A stretch of 44,184 nt of DNA from Bacteroidota bacterium (GCA_019455105.1 JACFMZ010000010.1:1-44184); one strand, 5' to 3'; positions 2,458 through 12,688 are shown, counted from the first letter of the stretch. Notes: generated from the letters alone by a model not told the origin. Numbers and translations: made by a program.

Positions 2458-3588
2458 ATGATACAAAATCGCATGGTTATCAGAACTGGAAATCAAATGA
2501 TTGCCGAAGGGGCATTGCAGGCAGGGTGCCAATTTTTTGCCGGTTATCCCATCACGCCCGCTTCGGGAATTTACAAAGCAATGATTGAACAGCTTCCTTC
2601 AAAAAACGGCGTGGCAATTTCGGCGCCGGATGAAATTTCTGCGCTTGCATATTGCGTCGGCGCTTCGGCGCGCGGTGCAAAAACAATGACGGCAACTTCC
2701 GGTCCCGGCTGGGCGCTGATGATTGAAACAGTGCAATATGCTTTGATGACTGAACTTCCCGTTGTTATTGCCATGGTGCAGCGTTTAGGGCCAAGCACCG
2801 GCGGCGCTACGCAGAATGCGCAGGGAGATATTTTATTTACGGAATTCTGCACTTCCGGCGGATATACCATACCAATGTTTGCGCCGAGCACTCCGCAGGA
2901 ATGTTTTGAAGTAACCACGATTGCCTTTAAATGGGCGGAACTGTTGCGAACGCCGGTGGTTATTCTTTCGGATAAAGAAGTCGGCATGATGGCGGAAGAT
3001 GTAAATTATGCGTTGTTGAACAGTGCGCCGCCGTGGTATCGCAAAGAATTTTCTTCCAAAAACGGCGAGCCGCATATTACGTACAATTTTAAAAACGGCG
3101 GTGATATTCCGTTCTTTGCTCCAGTCGGAGGAAAAGACAAAGTAACGATGACCGGTTCCGCACATAACAAGCAGGGCGCATTGCAGAAAAATTCTCCTGA
3201 AACATTGGAAGTCCTCCGCCATCTGCAGCAAAAAATAGACGTGCATAAAGAAGAGATGGCAATTGTTCGTCTTGATGAACAAGAGAAAGCCGATACGCTA
3301 ATCATCAGCTTCGGCATTACTCACCGCACGGCGCGCGAAGCCGTGAAGCGTGCGCGAAGCAGCGGAAAGCGGGTTCGCTTAGCCAACGTTATTTCTCTCT
3401 TTCCGATTCCGTCAAAACAATTAATTGAAGCGGCGAGCAATGTAAAACGAATAATTGTTGCGGAAGAAAACATGACGGGACAATATCGCAGTGTTATCCG
3501 GCATTTGTTCGACGGAAAAGAAATTATCGGCGTGAATGCCGTCGGCACAATGATTTCTCCGGAAATGATACTCAGCGAAATTCTCTAG
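2458..3588 (+). CDS. 2-oxoacid:ferredoxin oxidoreductase, alpha subunit (KorA-like)
   Basis: Alpha subunit of a thiamine-diphosphate 2-oxoacid:ferredoxin oxidoreductase, which oxidatively decarboxylates a 2-oxoacid (2-oxoglutarate or similar) to its acyl-CoA while reducing ferredoxin. The frame is open from a TTG at 2392, but the ATG at 2458 sits just after GGGAAGGAGA and begins right at the conserved domain, giving 376 residues. The pyrimidine-binding motif GYPITPAS is at residues 29-36, followed by the conserved SGPG and STGGATQNAQGD segments. A C-terminal transketolase-like domain ends the protein. The gamma domain often fused to the N-terminus of alpha subunits is absent here and is found on the next gene instead. 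Substrate specificity is not decided by the sequence; I avoid a firm gene symbol. Confidence 0.9.
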   Translation: MIQNRMVIRTGNQMIAEGALQAGCQFFAGYPITPASGIYKAMIEQLPSKNGVAISAPDEISALAYCVGASARGAKTMTATSGPGWALMIETVQYALMTELPVVIAMVQRLGPSTGGATQNAQGDILFTEFCTSGGYTIPMFAPSTPQECFEVTTIAFKWAELLRTPVVILSDKEVGMMAEDVNYALLNSAPPWYRKEFSSKNGEPHITYNFKNGGDIPFFAPVGGKDKVTMTGSAHNKQGALQKNSPETLEVLRHLQQKIDVHKEEMAIVRLDEQEKADTLIISFGITHRTAREAVKRARSSGKRVRLANVISLFPIPSKQLIEAASNVKRIIVAEENMTGQYRSVIRHLFDGKEIIGVNAVGTMISPEMILSEIL

Positions 3589-3623
3589 AAATTATTTTCT
3601 TAAAACATTGCGTAAAAAAAATT

Positions 3624-4970
3624 ATGGTTGGAACTGAAAGTAAATATCTTAAAGAAAACGCGTCGTTTCCGTTTTGCAAAGGATGCGGACATCATCACTA
3701 CGTGAATTATCTCGATGAAGCGTTGACGAAGCTGAATCTCGATCCGGAACACGTCTGCATTGTCAGTGATATCGGCTGTATCGGAATTTTAGACTCTCTT
3801 TTTTCTACGCCGCACACTTTCCATACAACTCACGGACGGTCAACGGCATTTGCCACCGGCATTGAACTTGCCGACGGAATTTTGAATGATTCAAAATTAA
3901 AATCCATCGTCGTTATCGGCGACGGAGGTTCAACAATCGGTCTGCTGCACATTGTAAATGCCGCGATGATGAATATTGACGTGACTGTTCTGGTTGCCAA
4001 TAATTTCCTTTACGGCATGACCGGCGGACAGCATTCGCATTTTTCGCCGCTGGATTTTGTTACGCCGACAACGCCGGCAGGAAACATTGTTCCGCCGCTG
4101 GATATTTGTTCTATTGTAAAAAGCTGCGGCGCGCAGTTTGTTAAACAGGCCGTTGTTACCGATAAAAATCTTTCTTCAATTGTTGCTGAGGCGATTCGTT
4201 ACCCCGGTTTTGCGCTGGTAGAAATTTTTGAACTCTGCACCGAATGGGCGACGCCGTTTAATAAGATTGACGGAAAAATGCTCTCTTCAAAAGTGCAATT
4301 TGCGGAAGAAGATCTTCCTGCTTTGCGAAAAGAATTTTCCGAATTGTATAAAGAAAAAATTCTCAGCGTGCCGCTCAAAAAGTCCGATGACGGCATTGAA
4401 CAGAAATATTCTTCACCGCTGCGCGGAACAAAACGGATTGTTTTTGCCGGAACAGCGGGGGAGAAAGTGCAGCTCGCTTCGTATTTAACTATGCGGGCGG
4501 CAATCGGCAGCAAGCTTCATGCAACGCAAAAAAATGATAATCCGGTAACACAGGGTTCGGGCTTTTCTCTTTCGGAAGTCTGTTTGAGCAGCGAAGAAAT
4601 TCTCTATACCGGCATTGATGTGCCGGATGTGGTGATTATTGCTTCGGCGGACGGATTAAAAGAAGTCCGCGCCAACGGAATTCTTCAGCGATGCAGAAAA
4701 AATTCGCTCGTGCTTGCGGAACAGACTCTGCCGGAGTTTGAATGCGGCGGAACGGTTCTCCGGCTCGCGCTTCGTTCGCTCTGCACGGGAAGCCGCGCTT
4801 CGCTCAGCGCCTTTGCCGCATTCAATGAAATAACCGGATGGATTCCGCGCGAAGCAATGAACGAAACATTTGAACAAAAATTTAAAGAAAAATCTGCGCT
4901 GTACGAAAAAGATATTGCTTCCTTAAAACCGGCGCTGGCAGCGCTTCTTCCGAAAGGAGTACCGGTATGA
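3624..4970 (+). CDS. 2-oxoacid:ferredoxin oxidoreductase, fused beta-gamma subunit
   Basis: Partner of the preceding alpha subunit, 35 bases downstream. Residues 1 to about 230 are the beta subunit: the CKGCGHH motif near the N-terminus and the SDIGCIG segment supply cysteines typical of the Fe-S-binding beta chain, and the thiamine diphosphate/Mg motif runs from GDGG at 99-102 to the paired Asn at 126-127, then YGMTGGQ. After a linker, residues from about 270 to the C-terminus match the gamma (catalytic accessory) subunit, with FAGTAGEKVQLASYL, then QGSGFSLSEV and PDVVIIAS. The reading frame is continuous with no sign of a frameshift, so the 448-residue fusion looks real. No ferredoxin-like delta subunit is nearby. 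The stop overlaps the next start as ATGA, implying translational coupling. Confidence 0.88.
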   Translation: MVGTESKYLKENASFPFCKGCGHHHYVNYLDEALTKLNLDPEHVCIVSDIGCIGILDSLFSTPHTFHTTHGRSTAFATGIELADGILNDSKLKSIVVIGDGGSTIGLLHIVNAAMMNIDVTVLVANNFLYGMTGGQHSHFSPLDFVTPTTPAGNIVPPLDICSIVKSCGAQFVKQAVVTDKNLSSIVAEAIRYPGFALVEIFELCTEWATPFNKIDGKMLSSKVQFAEEDLPALRKEFSELYKEKILSVPLKKSDDGIEQKYSSPLRGTKRIVFAGTAGEKVQLASYLTMRAAIGSKLHATQKNDNPVTQGSGFSLSEVCLSSEEILYTGIDVPDVVIIASADGLKEVRANGILQRCRKNSLVLAEQTLPEFECGGTVLRLALRSLCTGSRASLSAFAAFNEITGWIPREAMNETFEQKFKEKSALYEKDIASLKPALAALLPKGVPV

Positions 4971-5197
4971 ATACAATTGATGAATATACCTGCATGACTA
5001 CCGTTCTGGAAAAATTTATTGAACGGGAAAACGAATCCATTGCACTGATGGAACAGGCAATGCATAAGCTCGGCGATACGGCTGTTACGCCGGTGTTCCG
5101 GAATCTTCTTGCGGAGAAACACCGTCACCGCGAAATGCTGGAACAGGCATTAACCGAAATGAATGAACAATTTGAATTAGATGAAGCCATAATTTAA
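4967..5197 (+). CDS. Small two-helix ferritin/rubrerythrin-like protein (76 aa)
   Basis: A short, acidic, all-helical soluble protein translated from an ATGA overlap with the beta-gamma oxidoreductase gene and preceded by GAAAGGAGT. Two helices are apparent: residues 8-34, with Glu19, Glu21 and Glu23, and residues 40-68, with AEKHRHREML at 49-58. This resembles half of a four-helix rubrerythrin/ferritin-like bundle, so a dimer could build a diiron site. However, aligned to rubrerythrins the usual E-x-x-H ligand pair is not cleanly kept: Lys51 falls three residues before His54 and Glu50 falls four before it. Metal binding is therefore inference. Its tight linkage to the oxidoreductase and to the globin 11 bases downstream suggests a role in protecting or supplying the oxygen-sensitive enzyme. 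Real gene: high confidence; function: low. Confidence 0.75.
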   Translation: MNTIDEYTCMTTVLEKFIERENESIALMEQAMHKLGDTAVTPVFRNLLAEKHRHREMLEQALTEMNEQFELDEAII

Positions 5198-5208
5198 AGG
5201 AGAAGGCA

Positions 5209-5643
5209 ATGACACCGAAACAAAAAGATCTTGTCCGCGGAACATTTACGCTGCTGGAAACAAAAAAAGAAATTGTTGCGGACTTGTTGTATAAAAAATT
5301 GTTCGAGCTGGAGCCGAAAACACAGTCGCTGTTTCGCGGCGATATGCAGGAACAAAAAAGGAAGCTGATGCGCATGCTGGTGATTGCGGTGGAAAATCTT
5401 GATAATCCCGAAGAGCTTCGGCCGATGCTTTTCAATCTCGGACAGATTCATCATTCGTTCGGCATTGAAGGACATCAGTTTACGTCGTTCGGCGAAGCAA
5501 TGATGTTTTCCTTAAAAACCGTGCTGGGAAAAGATTTTACGCCTGATGTGGAAGACGCCTGGAAATCGGTCTATTTACATTTAGCTTCCACTATGCACAA
5601 TCATCCGCATCATGATGAAACGGTGCAGCTTCCGCACAATTAA
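5209..5643 (+). CDS. Single-domain globin (flavohaemoglobin-like haem domain)
   Basis: A 144-residue haem globin with no attached reductase. The three-over-three fold signatures are visible: YKKLFELEP with a B10-type Tyr28, the CD1 Phe42 after the proline, and the proximal histidine in LGQIHHSFGI (His81 fits the L-G-x-x-H-x-x-F-G pattern). Such single-domain globins bind O2 and NO and usually act in NO detoxification or oxygen sensing; which applies here is not visible. The start follows AAGGAG by a few bases. The C-terminal tail is His-rich (HNHPHHDE), which is unusual and could bind metal. It is probably the last gene of the oxidoreductase operon, ahead of the metal-efflux genes. Confidence 0.87.
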   Translation: MTPKQKDLVRGTFTLLETKKEIVADLLYKKLFELEPKTQSLFRGDMQEQKRKLMRMLVIAVENLDNPEELRPMLFNLGQIHHSFGIEGHQFTSFGEAMMFSLKTVLGKDFTPDVEDAWKSVYLHLASTMHNHPHHDETVQLPHN

Positions 5644-5696
5644 CGGGAACTTAAATTAAGCATCTTTCCGTTTTATTATGTAACTTTACGGGAGTT

Positions 5697-6077
5697 ATGA
5701 AAAAAGCCACTGTCATATTGTTTCTTGCGGTCTATACGCTGCTGATCGTCGGGGTGAATATTATGGTTCACACCTGCGGCGGTGAAACGGAATCCATTCT
5801 TGCGCCTCTTTCGGCTGAAGATCCGTGCGGGAGCGAAGATGGAACAATGCCGAACGATATGTGCTGCAAAACAGAAATTAAATCGGTAAAGATTAGCGAC
5901 GAGCAGTTAGCCGCAAGCGCCGCTTCCTGCGAACCGCTGACGGTCAGCAATATGCTGCCGGTTCTTTCTTCAACGGTTTCAATTCAGGAAACTGCCGTAC
6001 TCTTTTCTTCTCCCTATGAAATTTATCCGCCTCCAAAATTAGCATTATATATTTCTCATTCCGTGTTCCTTATTTAG
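5697..6077 (+). CDS. HYC_CC_PP family protein (metal-locus-associated)
   Basis: A 126-residue protein with one N-terminal hydrophobic segment (residues 4-24, signal anchor or signal peptide), so probably membrane-bound or periplasmic. It shows the trio that defines the Bacteroidota HYC_CC_PP family: a His/Cys element (HTCGG), a paired cysteine (MCCKTE) and a late PP motif (IYPPPK). Members of this family are commonly encoded beside heavy-metal efflux and HMA-domain genes, as here. The six cysteines suggest metal binding or disulfides after export. The biochemical role is unknown. It starts 53 bases after the globin gene, with CGGGAG ahead of the ATG, and probably opens the metal-efflux transcript. 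Confidence 0.72.
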   Translation: MKKATVILFLAVYTLLIVGVNIMVHTCGGETESILAPLSAEDPCGSEDGTMPNDMCCKTEIKSVKISDEQLAASAASCEPLTVSNMLPVLSSTVSIQETAVLFSSPYEIYPPPKLALYISHSVFLI

Positions 6078-6152
6078 GTAAAGGTATTTTTTTATCTCCT
6101 GTTACCTAAAAAATACCATTATGTTAAAAACACAATCAATAAAGGAACCGTT

Positions 6153-6485
6153 ATGAAAACGAAATTATTTTCAACTCTCATTATACTGCTGTTGTTTACA
6201 TCATTATCCTCTGCCGGCGAAACGGTGAAGGATACCACCTTCAAAGTCTTCGGAAACTGCGGAATGTGCAAAGCGCGCATTGAAAAAGCAATGAAGATCA
6301 GCGAAGTAAAAAAAGCATCGTGGGATAAAAATACAAAGATGCTTTCCGTTTCATTTGTTACCGGAAAAATTACCGTTGATTCGCTTCAGAAGATTGCGGC
6401 ATCCGTGGGACACGATACCGAACAATACAAAGCTTCGGATGAGGTGTACAACAATCTTCCGAAGTGCTGTCTCTATAGAAAATAA
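6153..6485 (+). CDS. Secreted HMA-domain metal-binding protein
   Basis: A 110-residue exported protein: signal peptide at residues 1-21 (hydrophobic run ending SSAGE), then a single heavy-metal-associated domain with the metal-binding loop GNCGMC (Cys36 and Cys39). A second cysteine pair, Cys105-Cys106, sits four residues from the C-terminus and is not part of the standard domain. Cytosolic CopZ chaperones lack a signal peptide, so this is best read as a periplasmic copper (or related soft metal) carrier that could hand metal to the efflux pump encoded just downstream. The start follows AAAGGA. Metal identity is inferred from the neighbours. Confidence 0.83.
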   Translation: MKTKLFSTLIILLLFTSLSSAGETVKDTTFKVFGNCGMCKARIEKAMKISEVKKASWDKNTKMLSVSFVTGKITVDSLQKIAASVGHDTEQYKASDEVYNNLPKCCLYRK

Positions 6486-6562
6486 CCAAAGAAATTATTC
6501 TCTTCTTTTTTTGAGTCGAAGATATTCTTCGCATTCAATAATTATTTTTTTAGGAGACAACA

Positions 6563-7807
6563 ATGAAATTTCTCTTTGGAGCGCTCTGCTCGCTTCTTTC
6601 AATTACGGCGGGAGCCCAATCAACCGATTCGCTCTATCTTGAACCGCTTCTTCAGGAAGTGATTAGTTCAAATCCTGCACTGCTTGCCGCACAGGCAAAT
6701 CACCGGCGCGAAGAAACAAAAATCAGCCAGGCACGGTCGTGGAATGCGCCGATGGTATCGGTGGAATTTATGGACAATCCGATAACGTCGCTGAACTTTC
6801 CGAAAAACGGAATGATGCGCCGATACGCTCTTGAACAAATGATTCCGTTCCCCGGAAAAATTTCTTCTGCGGAAACATCGGCGCAGGCTTCGGCGGCATC
6901 GGCGCACTCTTCCAGCGAAGCGTATAAAAGAACGCTAATTGCCGAAACAAAAAAACAGTACGCGATGCTCTATTCAATTCAACGGCGTCTTTCGGTAAAT
7001 CAGGAAAATCAAACGCTTCTTCAGCAGATGATTTCCGCCGTTCAGGCAAAATATTCCGTCGGGCAGGCAACGCAGGCGGATGTTTTACGGATGCAGATTG
7101 AATTAACAAAACTGGAAAATGAATTTTCTTCCTTACAACAGGAAGAGCGGATGGCGGAAGGAATGATCAATGCGCTCCGCTCAAAACCAACCGGAACACC
7201 AATCGGAACAATTCCTGTCATTGCACTGCCGCCGCTTCCGGAAAATGAAACAGCATTGGAACAAGATGCAATGTCAAAACGAAATGAACTTCATTCAATG
7301 CAGGCGGAAATTGAAATGTCTCGCGCCGATGTATCCATGTCGCAAAAAGAACAATATCCCGATTTGCAGATCGGGCTTGCCTATAAAGAACTGGCGGCAA
7401 TGCCCGATACCTGGGAATTGATGATCGGCATCAGCATTCCGTTTGCTCCGTGGGCGAGCGGAAAATATTCCGGGAAGATTGAAGAACAGCAGCTTGCCGT
7501 GCAGCAGAAAGAACATGAATTTGCCGACATGAGAAATATGATTCGGTTTGATGTGTACGATAAATGGAGCAAAGCAAAAGCGAGCTGGGAGAAATTACAG
7601 CGGTACGAAACTTCAGTGCTTCCTTCTACCCGCCAGACTTTTGAAGCGCTGCGCAGCGCATACATTGCCAACAAAGCAGATTTTCTTTCGCTCATTGATG
7701 CCGTTCGCATGGTGCAGATGTACACTATGGAATATTACGAAGAAGCGGCGCAGTATCTTTCTTACCGCGCGGATTTAGAACGCGCGGCGGGAACTGAATT
7801 ACCATAA
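6563..7807 (+). CDS. TolC/CusC family outer-membrane efflux protein
   Basis: Outer-membrane channel component of the tripartite efflux pump encoded with the next two genes. It starts with a signal peptide (residues 1-19, ending TAGAQS) and continues as two outer-membrane-efflux-protein repeats with long amphipathic helices; the PALLAAQANHRREE segment and the later EIEMSRADVSMSQKEQYPDL segment are the usual repeat starts. Its 414 residues match the CusC/CzcC group. The helical regions are rich in Met and Gln. The ATG at 6563 follows TTAGGAGA. Membership of the metal-pump subgroup rests on the adjoining CusB- and CusA-like genes. Confidence 0.9.
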   Translation: MKFLFGALCSLLSITAGAQSTDSLYLEPLLQEVISSNPALLAAQANHRREETKISQARSWNAPMVSVEFMDNPITSLNFPKNGMMRRYALEQMIPFPGKISSAETSAQASAASAHSSSEAYKRTLIAETKKQYAMLYSIQRRLSVNQENQTLLQQMISAVQAKYSVGQATQADVLRMQIELTKLENEFSSLQQEERMAEGMINALRSKPTGTPIGTIPVIALPPLPENETALEQDAMSKRNELHSMQAEIEMSRADVSMSQKEQYPDLQIGLAYKELAAMPDTWELMIGISIPFAPWASGKYSGKIEEQQLAVQQKEHEFADMRNMIRFDVYDKWSKAKASWEKLQRYETSVLPSTRQTFEALRSAYIANKADFLSLIDAVRMVQMYTMEYYEEAAQYLSYRADLERAAGTELP

Positions 7808-7826
7808 AAGTTTAAAGGATAAAACA

Positions 7827-9353
7827 ATGAAAGCAATTTATTTAGGAATACTCTCTGCGGTGCTTCTCTTTTCATCCTGCACAAAAAATGAAAAGACAAA
7901 TGACCGCGCTGCATCAGAAACGCAGCATGATGTGTACACCTGCCCGATGCATCCTTCCGTTATTTCAGATCGTCCCGGCGCGTGTCCTGTTTGCGGAATG
8001 GCGCTGGTAAAAAAATCCGCGCAGCACGAAATTCAAAACAGTGATTTAACGGCGCTTCAGCAGGTAAGTCTTTCACCGACGCAGCGGGTGCTTGCCAACG
8101 TGGAAACCGTTCCCGTTGAAATTCTGCCGATGGAACATATTATTAACGCCGTTGGAATTGTTGATGTTGCCGAAACACATCAGGCGACAGTTTCCGCAAG
8201 ATTTCGCGGACGGATAGAAAAATTATTTGTTAATGTTACTGGCGAAGCGGTAAAAAAAGGAGAGCCGCTGTTTGAATTATACAGTCCCGACCTGATTACC
8301 TCGCAGCAGGAATTTATTCTTGCGCTCGACGGTAAACAGCAATCGCTGATTGACGGCATGCGCGAGCGGCTGCAGTTGAATTTTGGAATGACGCCGGCGC
8401 AAATTGCTTCTCTTGAACAACAGCGCAAAGTGCAGACTTCCGTTATTTTTTATTCGCCGATTTCCGGAACGGTTGTATTAAAACAAGTGCAGGCAGGAGA
8501 ATATGTTGATGAAGGAACCGTTCTTTATCAGCTTGCCGATCTTTCCACCGTGTGGATTTATCTTGATGTGTATGAAAAAGATATTCCGTGCGTAAAAAAA
8601 GGAGAATATGTTCACATTCAAACGGAAGCTTACCCCGAAACAAAATTTTCCGGCAGAGTAACGTTTATCGACCCTGTTATTAATCCCGAAACGCGGACAA
8701 TTCGGGTGCGGACAACGTTTGAAAATAAACACGGCATGCTGAAACCAAAAATGTTTGTTACGGCATCCATTCACAGCGAAGGGCGAAAAACTTTAGCGGT
8801 GCCGTTAAACGCCGTTCTTCTTACCGGAAAAAAAGCTGTGGTGTGGGTAGAAACAAAACTCAATACGTTTGACCCGCGCGATGTAAAGCTCGGCGGCTCC
8901 ACCGATTCGTATTATGAAATTCTCTCCGGTCTTCAGGAAGGTGATATGGTTGCCGTTGCCGGCGGATTTCTTCTTGATTCCGAAAGCGCATTGCAGCACC
9001 CTGAACGTTCCTCGATAGAGCCGGCACATCACGAAACAATTTCGGCAGCAATGGAAACGCCTGTCGGGAAAAAAGAACATTCAGTAAAACCGCAGATTGT
9101 TAAAATTACGGTGGACGGATCATATTCGCCTGATGTAGTGCATGTAAAACTCGGAACACCGGTGCAATTGCAATTTCACCGCGTTGAAGATTCGGAATGC
9201 ACGGAAGAAGTTGTGTTTGAAGAGCTTCACCTTCGAAAAAAACTTCCGGCATTTAAAACAACAACCATCACCATTACGCCGAAAGAATTGGGAGAAATTT
9301 CCTTCTCCTGCGGAATGGCAATGGTACACGGTAAACTTATTGTTGACCGCTGA
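7827..9353 (+). CDS. cusB: CusB-like RND efflux adaptor lipoprotein with C-terminal cupredoxin domain
   Basis: Periplasmic adaptor (membrane fusion protein) linking the RND pump to the outer-membrane channel. A lipoprotein signal ends at Cys18 (LLFSSC). Residues 37-62 form a heavy-metal-binding motif, C-P-M-H at 39-42 and C-P-V-C-G-M at 53-58. The HlyD/CusB barrel-sandwich, hairpin and beta-barrel domains follow to about residue 400. The last 90 or so residues (about 420-508) form a cupredoxin-like domain starting KPQIVKITVDG, with candidate copper ligands Cys458, His468, Cys495, Met497, Met499 and His501. The 508-residue length exceeds classical CusB because of the two added domains. It lies 19 bases after the TolC gene and ends 11 bases before the pump gene. 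Copper or silver is the likely substrate; this is inference. Confidence 0.9.
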   Translation: MKAIYLGILSAVLLFSSCTKNEKTNDRAASETQHDVYTCPMHPSVISDRPGACPVCGMALVKKSAQHEIQNSDLTALQQVSLSPTQRVLANVETVPVEILPMEHIINAVGIVDVAETHQATVSARFRGRIEKLFVNVTGEAVKKGEPLFELYSPDLITSQQEFILALDGKQQSLIDGMRERLQLNFGMTPAQIASLEQQRKVQTSVIFYSPISGTVVLKQVQAGEYVDEGTVLYQLADLSTVWIYLDVYEKDIPCVKKGEYVHIQTEAYPETKFSGRVTFIDPVINPETRTIRVRTTFENKHGMLKPKMFVTASIHSEGRKTLAVPLNAVLLTGKKAVVWVETKLNTFDPRDVKLGGSTDSYYEILSGLQEGDMVAVAGGFLLDSESALQHPERSSIEPAHHETISAAMETPVGKKEHSVKPQIVKITVDGSYSPDVVHVKLGTPVQLQFHRVEDSECTEEVVFEELHLRKKLPAFKTTTITITPKELGEISFSCGMAMVHGKLIVDR

Positions 9354-9364
9354 GGAACAACGCC

Positions 9365-12300
9365 ATGATAGAAAAAATTATTGATTACTCCGCAAAAAAT
9401 AAATTCGTTGTTATTCTTATTTATCTCGTTGTAATCGGCTGGGGAATTTGGTCGGTAGTGAAGACGCCGCTGGATGCCATTCCGGACCTTTCGGAAAATC
9501 AGGTGATTGTTTTTTCGGAATGGATGGGAAGGTCGCCTCAACTGGTAGAAGATCAAATTACTTTTCCACTTGTTACGGCGCTGCAGGGAGTGCCGGAGGT
9601 GGAAGCAATCCGTGCGCAGTCCATGTTCGGCATGTCGTTTATTTATATCATCTTTAACGAACATACGGATTTGTATTGGGCGCGAAGCCGCGTGCTGGAA
9701 AAACTTTCCACCGTTCAATCCGCGCTGCCGCAGGGGGCAACGGTTGAACTTGGACCGGACGGAACTGGTGTCGGTCATGTATTTTGGTACACCGTTGAAG
9801 GAAAAAAAGATCTCGGCACGCTGCGCGCAATTCAAGATTGGTATGTAAAATTAAATCTGCAGGGAGTGCAGGGAGTGGCGGAAATAGCTTCCATCGGCGG
9901 ATATGTAAAGCAGTATCAAGTGGATGTCAATCCGAACAAGATGAAAGCATTCAGCATTTCACTGGCGGATATAAAAAATGCGGTGATGCGTTCCAATAAT
10001 GATGTCGGCGGAAAAATATTGGAAATTTCCGATGCGGAATATTTTATCCGCGGTCAGGGATACATTCAATCAACCAAAGATATAGAAAATATTGTTGTCG
10101 GCACCGGCGCGAATAATGTTCCCATCTATATAAAAAATATCGGCGCAGTGCAGATCGGCGGAGATCTTCGGCGCGGTTCGTTGGAGAAAGACGGCGAAGG
10201 GCAGGTGGTGGGGGGCATTGTTGTTATGCGCTACGGCGAGAATGCCAAAGATGTGATTGACCGCGTGAAGAAACGCATTGCAGAAATTTCTCCCGGTCTG
10301 CCGGAAGGCGTGGAAATTAAAACTGCCTATGATCGAAGCGATTTAATTTTAGCTGCCGTTGATACTTTAAAGCATGCGCTTTTTGAAGAAGCAATTGTCG
10401 TCAGCATTATTGTGCTGCTCTTTCTTCTTCACGTGCGAAGCGTTCTCCGCGTAATTATAGAAATTCCCGTTGCCGTGTTCATTGCCTTTATCTGCATGAA
10501 AACATTCGGCATCACTTCCAATATTATGTCGCTCGGCGGAATTGCGATTGCCATCGGCGTTATTGTGGATGCTTCCATTGTGCTGGTGGAAAATGCGTAC
10601 CGTAACGTTGCACGGGTGCAGGAAGAAAAAGGAGAACTTTCGAAAGAAGAATATATTGAAATTTCCATCCGCTCGGCAAAGCAGGTCGGTCCCGCAATAT
10701 TTTATTCAGTGGCAATTATGGTTGTTTCGTTTCTTCCGGTCTTTTTACTGGAAGGGCAGGAAGGAAAAATGTTTAAGCCGCTCGCTTTTACAAAAACATT
10801 TGTGCTTATCGGGTCGGCAATAATTTCCATTACGCTGGTTCCGATGTTAATGACAATGTTAACACGCGGAAAATTCCGGCGTGAAGATAAAAATCCGATT
10901 ACAAAATTTCTGAATAAAATCTATGAACCGGTGATTCACTGGGCATTGAAATACCGGAAGACAGCTATCGGATTAAATATTCTTGCGCTCCTTGTTACCG
11001 TGCCGATGATTCATTCTATGGGCTCGGAGTTTATGCCTCCGCTGGATGAAGGAAGTCTGCTCTTTATGCCGGTAACGCTTCCCTCGGCATCCATTACAGA
11101 AGTAAACCGCATTATGCAGGTGCAGGATGCCATTATTAAATCTGTTCCCGAAGTGGAACAGGTTCTCGGTAAAGCGGGCAAAGCGGAAACTTCCACCGAC
11201 CCTGCGCCCGTGAGTATGATTGAATCTATTATTCTGCTGAAGCCGAAAAGCGAATGGCGGAAAGGAATTACTAAAGACGATATTATTGCCGAGCTTGATG
11301 CTAAACTGCAAATTCCCGGCGTGCGAAACGGCTGGACGCAGCCGATTATTAACCGAATCAACATGCTTTCCACCGGCGTGCGAACTGATTTAGGCGTAAA
11401 AATTTTCGGTAAAAATCTCGATACGCTTGAACAGCTTGCCATTCATGCCGAAGAAATTCTCCGCACGGTTCCCGGCGCGGCGGATCTTTATGCGGAACGA
11501 ACGCAGGGAGGATTGTTTCTTGATATAAAAATTCACCGTGAAGCGGTTGCGCGTTACGGCATTAACGTCGGCGATGTTCAGGATATTATTGAAACAGCAG
11601 TCGGCGGAGAAAATATCGGAACGGTGATTGAAGGGAGAGAGCGGTTTCCCATTCGGGTGCGATACGAGAGAGATTGGAGAGATCATTTTGAAGATTTAAA
11701 AAATCTTCTTGTTCCGGTGAATATTAAACGGACAGAAAGCGGCGCATCGTTTATTGCTTCGCCGGCGCCTTCATCCAACGGCGGAATGAACGGAATGAAT
11801 TCAGGAAGCACAAGCACAATGAACCGTCAAACCGCGGCGTCTTCTTCTCTGCCAGCCGGCTCCGCAATGGTTTCCGAGAGAAGCTACATTCCGCTCGGTC
11901 AGCTTGCTTCCATAACTATTGCGCCCGGTCCGCCGATGATTTCCAGCGAAAATGCGCAGCTTCGCTCCATTGTCTTTTTAAATGTGCGTGGAAGAGATAT
12001 GGGAAGTTTTGTTGAAGAAGCAAAAACGGTTCTTGAAAAAAAACTTGCTCTTCCGCAGGGCTATACGCTTCAATGGAGCGGACAATGGGAAAATCAAATT
12101 CATGCAAAAAACCGGCTGCTGATTGTTATGCCGATTGTGCTGATAATAATTTTTGTGATGCTGTATTTTGTAACGAAAGATTTTAAAGAATCGTTTGTTG
12201 TTATGCTGTCCGTTCCCTTTGCCTTAATCGGCGGAGTGTATTTATTGTTTTTCCTCGGCTATAATTTTTCTGTTGCTGTATGGGTCGGCTTTATTGCGCT

Positions 12301-12688
12301 GTACGGTCTTGCGGTGGAAACCGGCGTAGTGATGATTGTCTATCTTCATGAAGCGCTGGATAAACGCCTGCACGACCACCAGCAGGGGCTGCGCGGAGAA
12401 ATTACCATGACCGATATTTATAATGCAACGGTAGAAGGTTCCGTGCTGCGCCTTCGCCCGAAAGTAATGACGGTTGCCACCAGCATGATCGGTTTACTTC
12501 CGATTATGTGGAGTTCGGGAGTCGGCGCGGATGTGATGAAACCGCTGGCAACGCCGATGATCGGCGGACTTATTACTTCCACCGTTCATGTATTGATTAT
12601 GACGCCGGTACTTTTCAGTTACATGAAAGAATATTCCTTAAAGAAAGGAACGCTGGAAATTTCCAAAATGGCGGGGTGGATGAAGTAG
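9365..12688 (+). CDS. cusA: CusA/CzcA family heavy-metal RND efflux pump
   Basis: Inner-membrane proton-driven RND transporter of the heavy-metal-efflux (HME) class, about 12 transmembrane segments, 1107 residues. The family marks are present: DAIPDLSENQVIV near residue 37, the TM4 segment GGIAIAIGVIVDASIVLVENAYRN carrying the proton-relay acidic residues, GKAGKAETSTDPAP, and INRINMLSTGV, all closer to the monovalent-ion (CusA) subgroup. An unusual Ser/Gly/Met-rich insertion occupies about residues 788-838 (Met808, Met811, Met819, Met835) in the second periplasmic porter region, just before IPLGQLASI. The start follows GAGGAACAACGCC. It ends the efflux operon at a hairpin shared with the convergent gene. 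Confidence 0.95.
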   Translation: MIEKIIDYSAKNKFVVILIYLVVIGWGIWSVVKTPLDAIPDLSENQVIVFSEWMGRSPQLVEDQITFPLVTALQGVPEVEAIRAQSMFGMSFIYIIFNEHTDLYWARSRVLEKLSTVQSALPQGATVELGPDGTGVGHVFWYTVEGKKDLGTLRAIQDWYVKLNLQGVQGVAEIASIGGYVKQYQVDVNPNKMKAFSISLADIKNAVMRSNNDVGGKILEISDAEYFIRGQGYIQSTKDIENIVVGTGANNVPIYIKNIGAVQIGGDLRRGSLEKDGEGQVVGGIVVMRYGENAKDVIDRVKKRIAEISPGLPEGVEIKTAYDRSDLILAAVDTLKHALFEEAIVVSIIVLLFLLHVRSVLRVIIEIPVAVFIAFICMKTFGITSNIMSLGGIAIAIGVIVDASIVLVENAYRNVARVQEEKGELSKEEYIEISIRSAKQVGPAIFYSVAIMVVSFLPVFLLEGQEGKMFKPLAFTKTFVLIGSAIISITLVPMLMTMLTRGKFRREDKNPITKFLNKIYEPVIHWALKYRKTAIGLNILALLVTVPMIHSMGSEFMPPLDEGSLLFMPVTLPSASITEVNRIMQVQDAIIKSVPEVEQVLGKAGKAETSTDPAPVSMIESIILLKPKSEWRKGITKDDIIAELDAKLQIPGVRNGWTQPIINRINMLSTGVRTDLGVKIFGKNLDTLEQLAIHAEEILRTVPGAADLYAERTQGGLFLDIKIHREAVARYGINVGDVQDIIETAVGGENIGTVIEGRERFPIRVRYERDWRDHFEDLKNLLVPVNIKRTESGASFIASPAPSSNGGMNGMNSGSTSTMNRQTAASSSLPAGSAMVSERSYIPLGQLASITIAPGPPMISSENAQLRSIVFLNVRGRDMGSFVEEAKTVLEKKLALPQGYTLQWSGQWENQIHAKNRLLIVMPIVLIIIFVMLYFVTKDFKESFVVMLSVPFALIGGVYLLFFLGYNFSVAVWVGFIALYGLAVETGVVMIVYLHEALDKRLHDHQQGLRGEITMTDIYNATVEGSVLRLRPKVMTVATSMIGLLPIMWSSGVGADVMKPLATPMIGGLITSTVHVLIMTPVLFSYMKEYSLKKGTLEISKMAGWMK

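Follow-up and report, generated by a model that had tools for sequence, protein, structure and literature searches.

Anaerobic carbon metabolism and CO2 fixation depend centrally on 2-oxoacid:ferredoxin oxidoreductases, some of which tolerate oxygen for reasons that are still debated. In the known two-subunit enzymes the gamma domain is carried on the alpha subunit, as in KorA, and we know of no ferritin-like partner described for them. The locus treated here lies at positions 2458 to 5643 of a 44,184-nucleotide stretch from a Bacteroidota bacterium (GCA_019455105.1, JACFMZ010000010.1:1-44184; this whole stretch is hereafter the window), where an alpha gene and a fused beta-gamma gene of such an enzyme are followed by a gene for a 76-residue half-ferritin-like protein, which we call hf, and then by a globin gene. 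Unlike in the known two-subunit enzymes, gamma is here fused behind beta. The window enzyme otherwise shares its domains, its thiamine pyrophosphate (TPP) motif and four beta-subunit cysteines with Sulfolobus OFOR and with the KorAB enzymes of Hydrogenobacter and M. tuberculosis, and like them it is of the single-cluster type and comes without a ferredoxin subunit (PMC5020499, PMC2773412). As detailed below, hf is probably an undescribed partner of 2-oxoacid:ferredoxin oxidoreductases in Ignavibacteria-type bacteria.

An earlier note on this DNA, made from the sequence alone, had proposed that the small helical protein is a companion of the oxidoreductase, and the genomic neighborhoods bear this out. 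A scan of named genomes yielded 80 beta-gamma loci, or 81 with the window; most of these genomes are metagenome-assembled, start codons were chosen by rule, and the named-contig set overlaps the genome set used below, so that the counts are not independent replicates. An iterated hidden Markov model search over the 12,742 six-frame open reading frames (ORFs) of the 81 loci (E<0.05) returned 38 hf proteins, each of the 38 encoded co-directionally with alpha or beta-gamma and directly next to it, and none elsewhere in these loci at that threshold. The gaps between hf and the oxidoreductase gene are mostly -4 to 25 bp. hf lies downstream of beta-gamma in 21 loci (the window's clade and a Kryptoniota-like clade) and upstream of alpha in 17 (other clades). 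Mapping these positions onto a maximum-likelihood beta-gamma tree requires 9 changes, and therefore gene order has changed while hf and the enzyme genes stayed linked. Four loci (L097, L050, L057 and L065) were scored as lacking hf solely through contig ends; in the genome of the first (G240), hf and most of alpha are found on a separate contig (L257). In L042 and L045 beta-gamma and hf look fused, but the joined stretch contains runs of N, and both cases were set aside as assembly gaps. Separately, in L088 (9320-9829) and likewise in L025, a lineage that also has hf upstream, an ATGA overlap joins the start of a hemerythrin (HHE) gene to the stop codon of beta-gamma.

The association extends to a second oxidoreductase family. 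A neighbor-blind search of 245 genomes of the class, with an hf profile that had itself been seeded with oxidoreductase-linked members, found 118 positive genomes. In sampled regions from the class, an oxidoreductase gene is found no more than 3 kb from 49 of 59 half-ferritin genes, in every case on the strand of hf, and the usual layout is Fd-alpha'-beta'-gamma'-hf, a four-subunit operon whose alpha' scores 552 bits with the NCBIfam model for VorB (cut-off 399). Class-wide, VorB (67) or beta-gamma (26) lies no more than 6 kb from 87 of 108 hf genes (E<=1e-10), and several others sit at contig ends; by our estimate such an interval covers less than 1% of a genome, so that about one case would be expected by chance. 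The window genome itself (G000, 3.03 Mb) also encodes an hf of the Vor type, at C169:103-363; an MsrB-like gene comes next, an arrangement shared with G093, in which hf is the last gene of the Vor operon. Sampling across the phylum turned up Vor-type hf in this class only. Some Vor operons carry further genes: in L239, L242, L243 and L246, all from one genome family, two predicted secreted proteins of similar type are encoded between gamma' and hf, and in L222, L238, L240, L244 and L251 the Vor genes are followed by two distinct half-ferritin genes in a row, of which the first is rich in cysteine and the second in most cases has an ExxH motif; the two products may form a heterodimer. In L024, L025 and L227 two oxidoreductases follow one another in what looks like a single operon, alpha'-beta'-gamma'-hf-alpha-betagamma, and hf lies where they meet.

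In the explanation that we favor, hf derives from ferritin and serves as a small accessory subunit, or as an assembly or stability factor, docking directly on the oxidoreductase; we consider this proposition evenly balanced between right and wrong. Several points weigh against it. Linkage alone is not proof of binding, and across the class no listed hf lies near 27 of 53 beta-gamma loci or 89 of 150 VorB loci, partly owing to contig breaks (hf is present at the other 26 and 61, respectively); since so many oxidoreductase loci do without it, hf is not essential to the reaction. Likewise, alpha-betagamma occurs without hf in Terriglobia, Myxococcota, Chloroflexi and one Ignavibacteria clade, from which it follows that the enzyme can work alone. 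At least six hf genes belong to clusters for leucine/isoleucine biosynthesis and one to a cytochrome operon, and in the subgroup with a full di-iron motif, described below, the chemistry may matter. The many enzyme relatives that lack hf would also suit a co-regulated bystander, which shares a transcript with the enzyme but not a function; to this we give only a small probability, given that hf accompanies two oxidoreductase families, can stand on either side of alpha-betagamma and is always co-directional with the enzyme. The genes in biosynthesis clusters invite another alternative, namely that branched-chain 2-oxoacid enzymes generally use hf as an adaptor, either metabolic or regulatory: the half-ferritins of L217, L229, L253, L255, L259 and L260 lie mostly between citramalate/2-isopropylmalate synthase-type genes and IlvC/LeuCD-type genes, and Vor is the 2-ketoisovalerate type by NCBIfam. 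However, loci of this kind number some six and form a divergent subgroup, compared with 49 oxidoreductase loci in that sample, and we think such a general adaptor very unlikely. A half-ferritin with ExxH in L220 (5274-5531) is flanked by multihaem cytochrome-type genes.

In the window, the oxidoreductase and its companion are encoded as follows:

2458..3588, + strand: alpha subunit of a 2-oxoacid:acceptor oxidoreductase, 376 residues, with POR_N and PFOR_II domains
3624..4970, + strand: fused beta-gamma subunit, 448 residues, TPP_enzyme_C with GDGG followed by the gamma (POR) domain
4967..5197, + strand: half-ferritin-like accessory protein hf, 76 residues, a two-helix hairpin without ExxH, in ATGA overlap with beta-gamma

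The gap from alpha to beta-gamma is 35 bp, and the hf start codon (ATG at 4967) overlaps the beta-gamma stop codon (TGA at 4968-4970). ORF calls and coordinates reproduced the four genes of the earlier note in order, strand and spacing, and its family names also held: alpha, beta-gamma and the globin exceed curated cut-offs, and the name half-ferritin is supported by a profile of hf relatives. Scans for promoters and terminators gave signals at chance level only. Alpha matches POR_N with 179 bits and PFOR_II (domain II) with 52 (cut-offs 27), and beta-gamma matches TPP_enzyme_C with 83 bits and, behind it, the gamma domain POR (PF01558) with 29.2 bits against a cut-off of 27.4. GDGG at residues 99-102 and C18, C21, C52 and C205 are invariant across nine beta-gamma sequences; the four cysteines are expected to be the ligand set for a single [4Fe-4S] cluster, as in the two-subunit enzymes. 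We class alpha-betagamma as a new architectural variant of 2-oxoacid:ferredoxin oxidoreductases. No NCBIfam equivalog cut-off was reached, so the family search assigns no substrate. The window genome has three more POR_N genes besides this alpha: one of PFOR type, one in a KorA(gamma-alpha)/KorB pair and one Vor-type alpha'-beta' with a ferredoxin.

By itself, the 76-residue hf falls under every curated cut-off (DUF2383, 24.1 against 30.8 bits; Ferritin, 16.2 against 24.5), and no Pfam or NCBIfam family names it; its sub-threshold Pfam matches to HipA and other families were disregarded. A profile of 31 hf relatives, in contrast, finds the ferritin-like TM1526 (1vjx) at 4.8e-10; EncB, symerythrin and sulerythrin match less strongly, in the range of about 1e-3 to 1e-5, and designed di-iron bundles match as well. 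From the same alignment AlphaFold2 predicts a two-helix hairpin (residues 4-35 and 41-75) with high confidence (predicted local distance difference test score 89). Foldseek with this model listed EncB, EncC and EncFtn at E-values of 1-2, but any antiparallel coiled coil matches it, and Foldseek and VIA-align together show a helical hairpin only. On the combined strength of the profile matches and the hairpin model, hf belongs to the ferritin-like superfamily.

The earlier note had gone on to read the small protein and the globin as an oxygen-, NO- or iron-handling module, but an iron or oxygen role for the window hf found no support. Helix-1 Glu21 is kept in 27 of the 31 relatives, but the helix-2 ExxH pair (Glu51 and His54) is complete in 7 only, all from the Kryptoniota-like subgroup B, whose hf genes adjoin alpha-betagamma. 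Throughout the window's clade Glu51 is replaced by Lys or Gln (9 of 9), and His54 by Gln in 3 of 9; the window hf keeps E21 and has K51 at the ExxH glutamate position, and thus does not show the di-iron motif of ferritins and rubrerythrins. ExxH is also missing from the upstream-type and Vor-type hf. One of the two main rivals to a docking subunit, that hf is a rubrerythrin- or ferritin-like protein that handles iron, oxygen or peroxide and so shields an oxygen-sensitive enzyme, draws on its superfamily, on the complete Glu and ExxH set in all 7 members of subgroup B and in the second of the two copies that follow Vor in L222, L240 and L244, and on the added hemerythrin of the L025/L088 lineage. 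Nonetheless, the linkage to the enzyme outlasts the loss of the site, in the window's clade and in the upstream and Vor types alike, and we judge this protective role rather unlikely.

Cysteines are the basis of the other main rival. In 24 diverse Vor-type hf sequences, C8, C12, C16 and C40 are invariant, together with Glu26; L204:4854-5123 and its Vor-linked relatives show the pattern as CxHxCxxxC plus a fourth cysteine, the histidine not being present in all. The four cysteines are possibly an undescribed metal or Fe-S site, to judge from their conservation. If so, hf could be an Fe-S or electron-transfer helper (a cluster carrier, a repair factor or a redox relay), with the cysteine-rich Vor type ancestral and the window form derived. 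The partner enzymes do carry [4Fe-4S] clusters, and the leucine cluster with hf in L217 includes an Fe-S dehydratase, LeuCD, named by reading the sequence. However, no conserved cysteine appears in the alignment of the window's clade or of groups B, C and D, and the hairpin model places C8-C16 and C40 at opposite ends of helix 1, so far apart that, on this model, one site would be impossible within a monomer and could form only in an oligomer. We also regard the helper role as unlikely. What is conserved family-wide is the hairpin and its genomic company, not a single metal site, and for this reason we regard the window hf as more likely a structural partner than a scavenger of iron or oxygen, while in other subgroups chemistry may play a part.

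We therefore picture alpha-betagamma-hf as one functional cassette. Alpha and beta-gamma would form a two-polypeptide 2-oxoacid:ferredoxin oxidoreductase lacking a ferredoxin subunit of its own, with TPP and probably one [4Fe-4S] cluster in beta and with the gamma domain moved onto beta. hf is probably structural: a dimer or higher oligomer of hairpins may dock on the oxidoreductase and help its assembly or stability, and the conserved hf tail, NEQFxLDEAI, would be a candidate contact; the canonical di-iron site is absent in the window's clade. The same family would also serve the four-subunit Vor-type enzyme (Fd-alpha'-beta'-gamma'-hf) of the class, while the globin that follows in the window would be the head of an efflux cluster, merely transcriptionally downstream of hf.

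The globin and the genes that follow it are:

5209..5643, + strand: single-domain globin, 144 residues (PF00042), assigned to the downstream, co-directional efflux cluster
5697..6077, + strand: HYC_CC_PP family protein, which keeps the globin as a neighbor where the oxidoreductase is absent
6153..6485, + strand: HMA/MerP-like small heavy-metal-associated protein, efflux cluster
6563..7807, + strand: TolC-type outer-membrane efflux protein, efflux cluster, identified through a homologue
7827..9353, + strand: CusB-type membrane-fusion protein, efflux cluster
9365..12688, + strand: CusA/CzcA heavy-metal RND transporter, efflux cluster

At 5209-12688 the window thus has an efflux cluster of heavy-metal (Cu/Ag-like) type that opens with a single-domain globin, globin-HYC_CC_PP-HMA-TolC-CusB-CusA. 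The globin scores 63 bits with PF00042, and its residues Y28, Q49 and H81, which we take to be Tyr B10, Gln E7 and the proximal His, are invariant in five sequences. The earlier note had counted it as part of a four-gene protective module, and the order alpha-betagamma-hf-globin does recur in five relatives (L037, L038, L040, L041 and L226; L226, from G411, and L037 are apparently one and the same contig). The gap between hf and the globin is 11 bp in the window, and the two may therefore be co-transcribed there. In the relatives, though, this gap is 46-199 bp, the sister loci L043, L044 and L046 have hf without an adjoining globin, and in L042 the globin was not found. The genome of L044 (G401) separates the two units: the globin-HYC-HMA-TolC-CusB series, with one additional small gene between HYC and HMA, directly follows an M49-peptidase gene with no oxidoreductase between, and alpha-betagamma-hf lies on a separate contig without a globin; that peptidase gene is about 81% identical to the one upstream of alpha in L037, L038, L040 and L041. 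All four close globins of the class adjoin HYC and HMA, and none of the remote ones (28-44% identity) is near alpha or beta-gamma. Because G401 keeps the globin with the efflux genes and alpha-betagamma-hf elsewhere, the globin is a unit separate from alpha-betagamma-hf and the first gene of the metal-efflux cluster, and a four-gene module that includes it is highly improbable. The gene-order search across relatives that the earlier note called for thus had a divided outcome: alpha-betagamma-hf recurs widely, whereas the globin adjoins the enzyme in the window's subclade only.

Since hf accompanies its enzymes in two families, in several gene arrangements and across much of a bacterial class, it makes a testable candidate for a subunit or stability factor that has so far escaped notice. 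Its di-iron, cysteine-rich and metal-free forms make up a natural series on what the ferritin fold does without an iron site. More tentatively, they may represent a new and widespread type of subunit, a ferritin fold re-used in an accessory role, whose three forms shift with the partner enzyme and might set its oxygen tolerance or Fe-S integrity.

Among described systems, the globin is closest to single-domain globins such as Hell's Gate globin I (3s1i, its nearest solved relative), with which it has the fold and the conserved Tyr28, Gln49 and His81 in common, but the window globin heads a CusA/CzcA-type efflux cluster; a literature search for a copper-linked single-domain globin found nothing relevant. 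The encapsulated half-ferritins (EncFtn, EncB/EncC; PMC5012862) are two-helix half-ferritins like hf, with EncB among its closest solved structures, but the window hf is without the ExxH site. A search for encapsulin (PF04454) found none in the window genome while detecting it in three control genomes, and so hf is not an obvious encapsulin cargo. The four-subunit Vor/Kor enzymes (VorDABC; NF005507, VorB) belong to the same superfamily as the window enzyme and in this class their Vor operon often closes with hf, but they keep beta and gamma separate and add a ferredoxin subunit. The literature searched contained no description of an oxidoreductase-linked ferritin-like protein or of an hf gene added to Vor operons, in agreement with the earlier note's remark that the arrangement was not known as a described system. 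We rejected an identity of hf with epsilon of the five-subunit Hydrogenobacter/Aquifex enzymes, since that subunit is a ferredoxin (PMC10052474). The Aquifex aeolicus enzyme OGOR does, however, co-purify with Aq_1163, a small uncharacterized protein of about 15 kDa that is encoded next to it and reported to be confined to a few Aquificales (PMC10052474); this pair is a precedent for an extra small partner of such an oxidoreductase.

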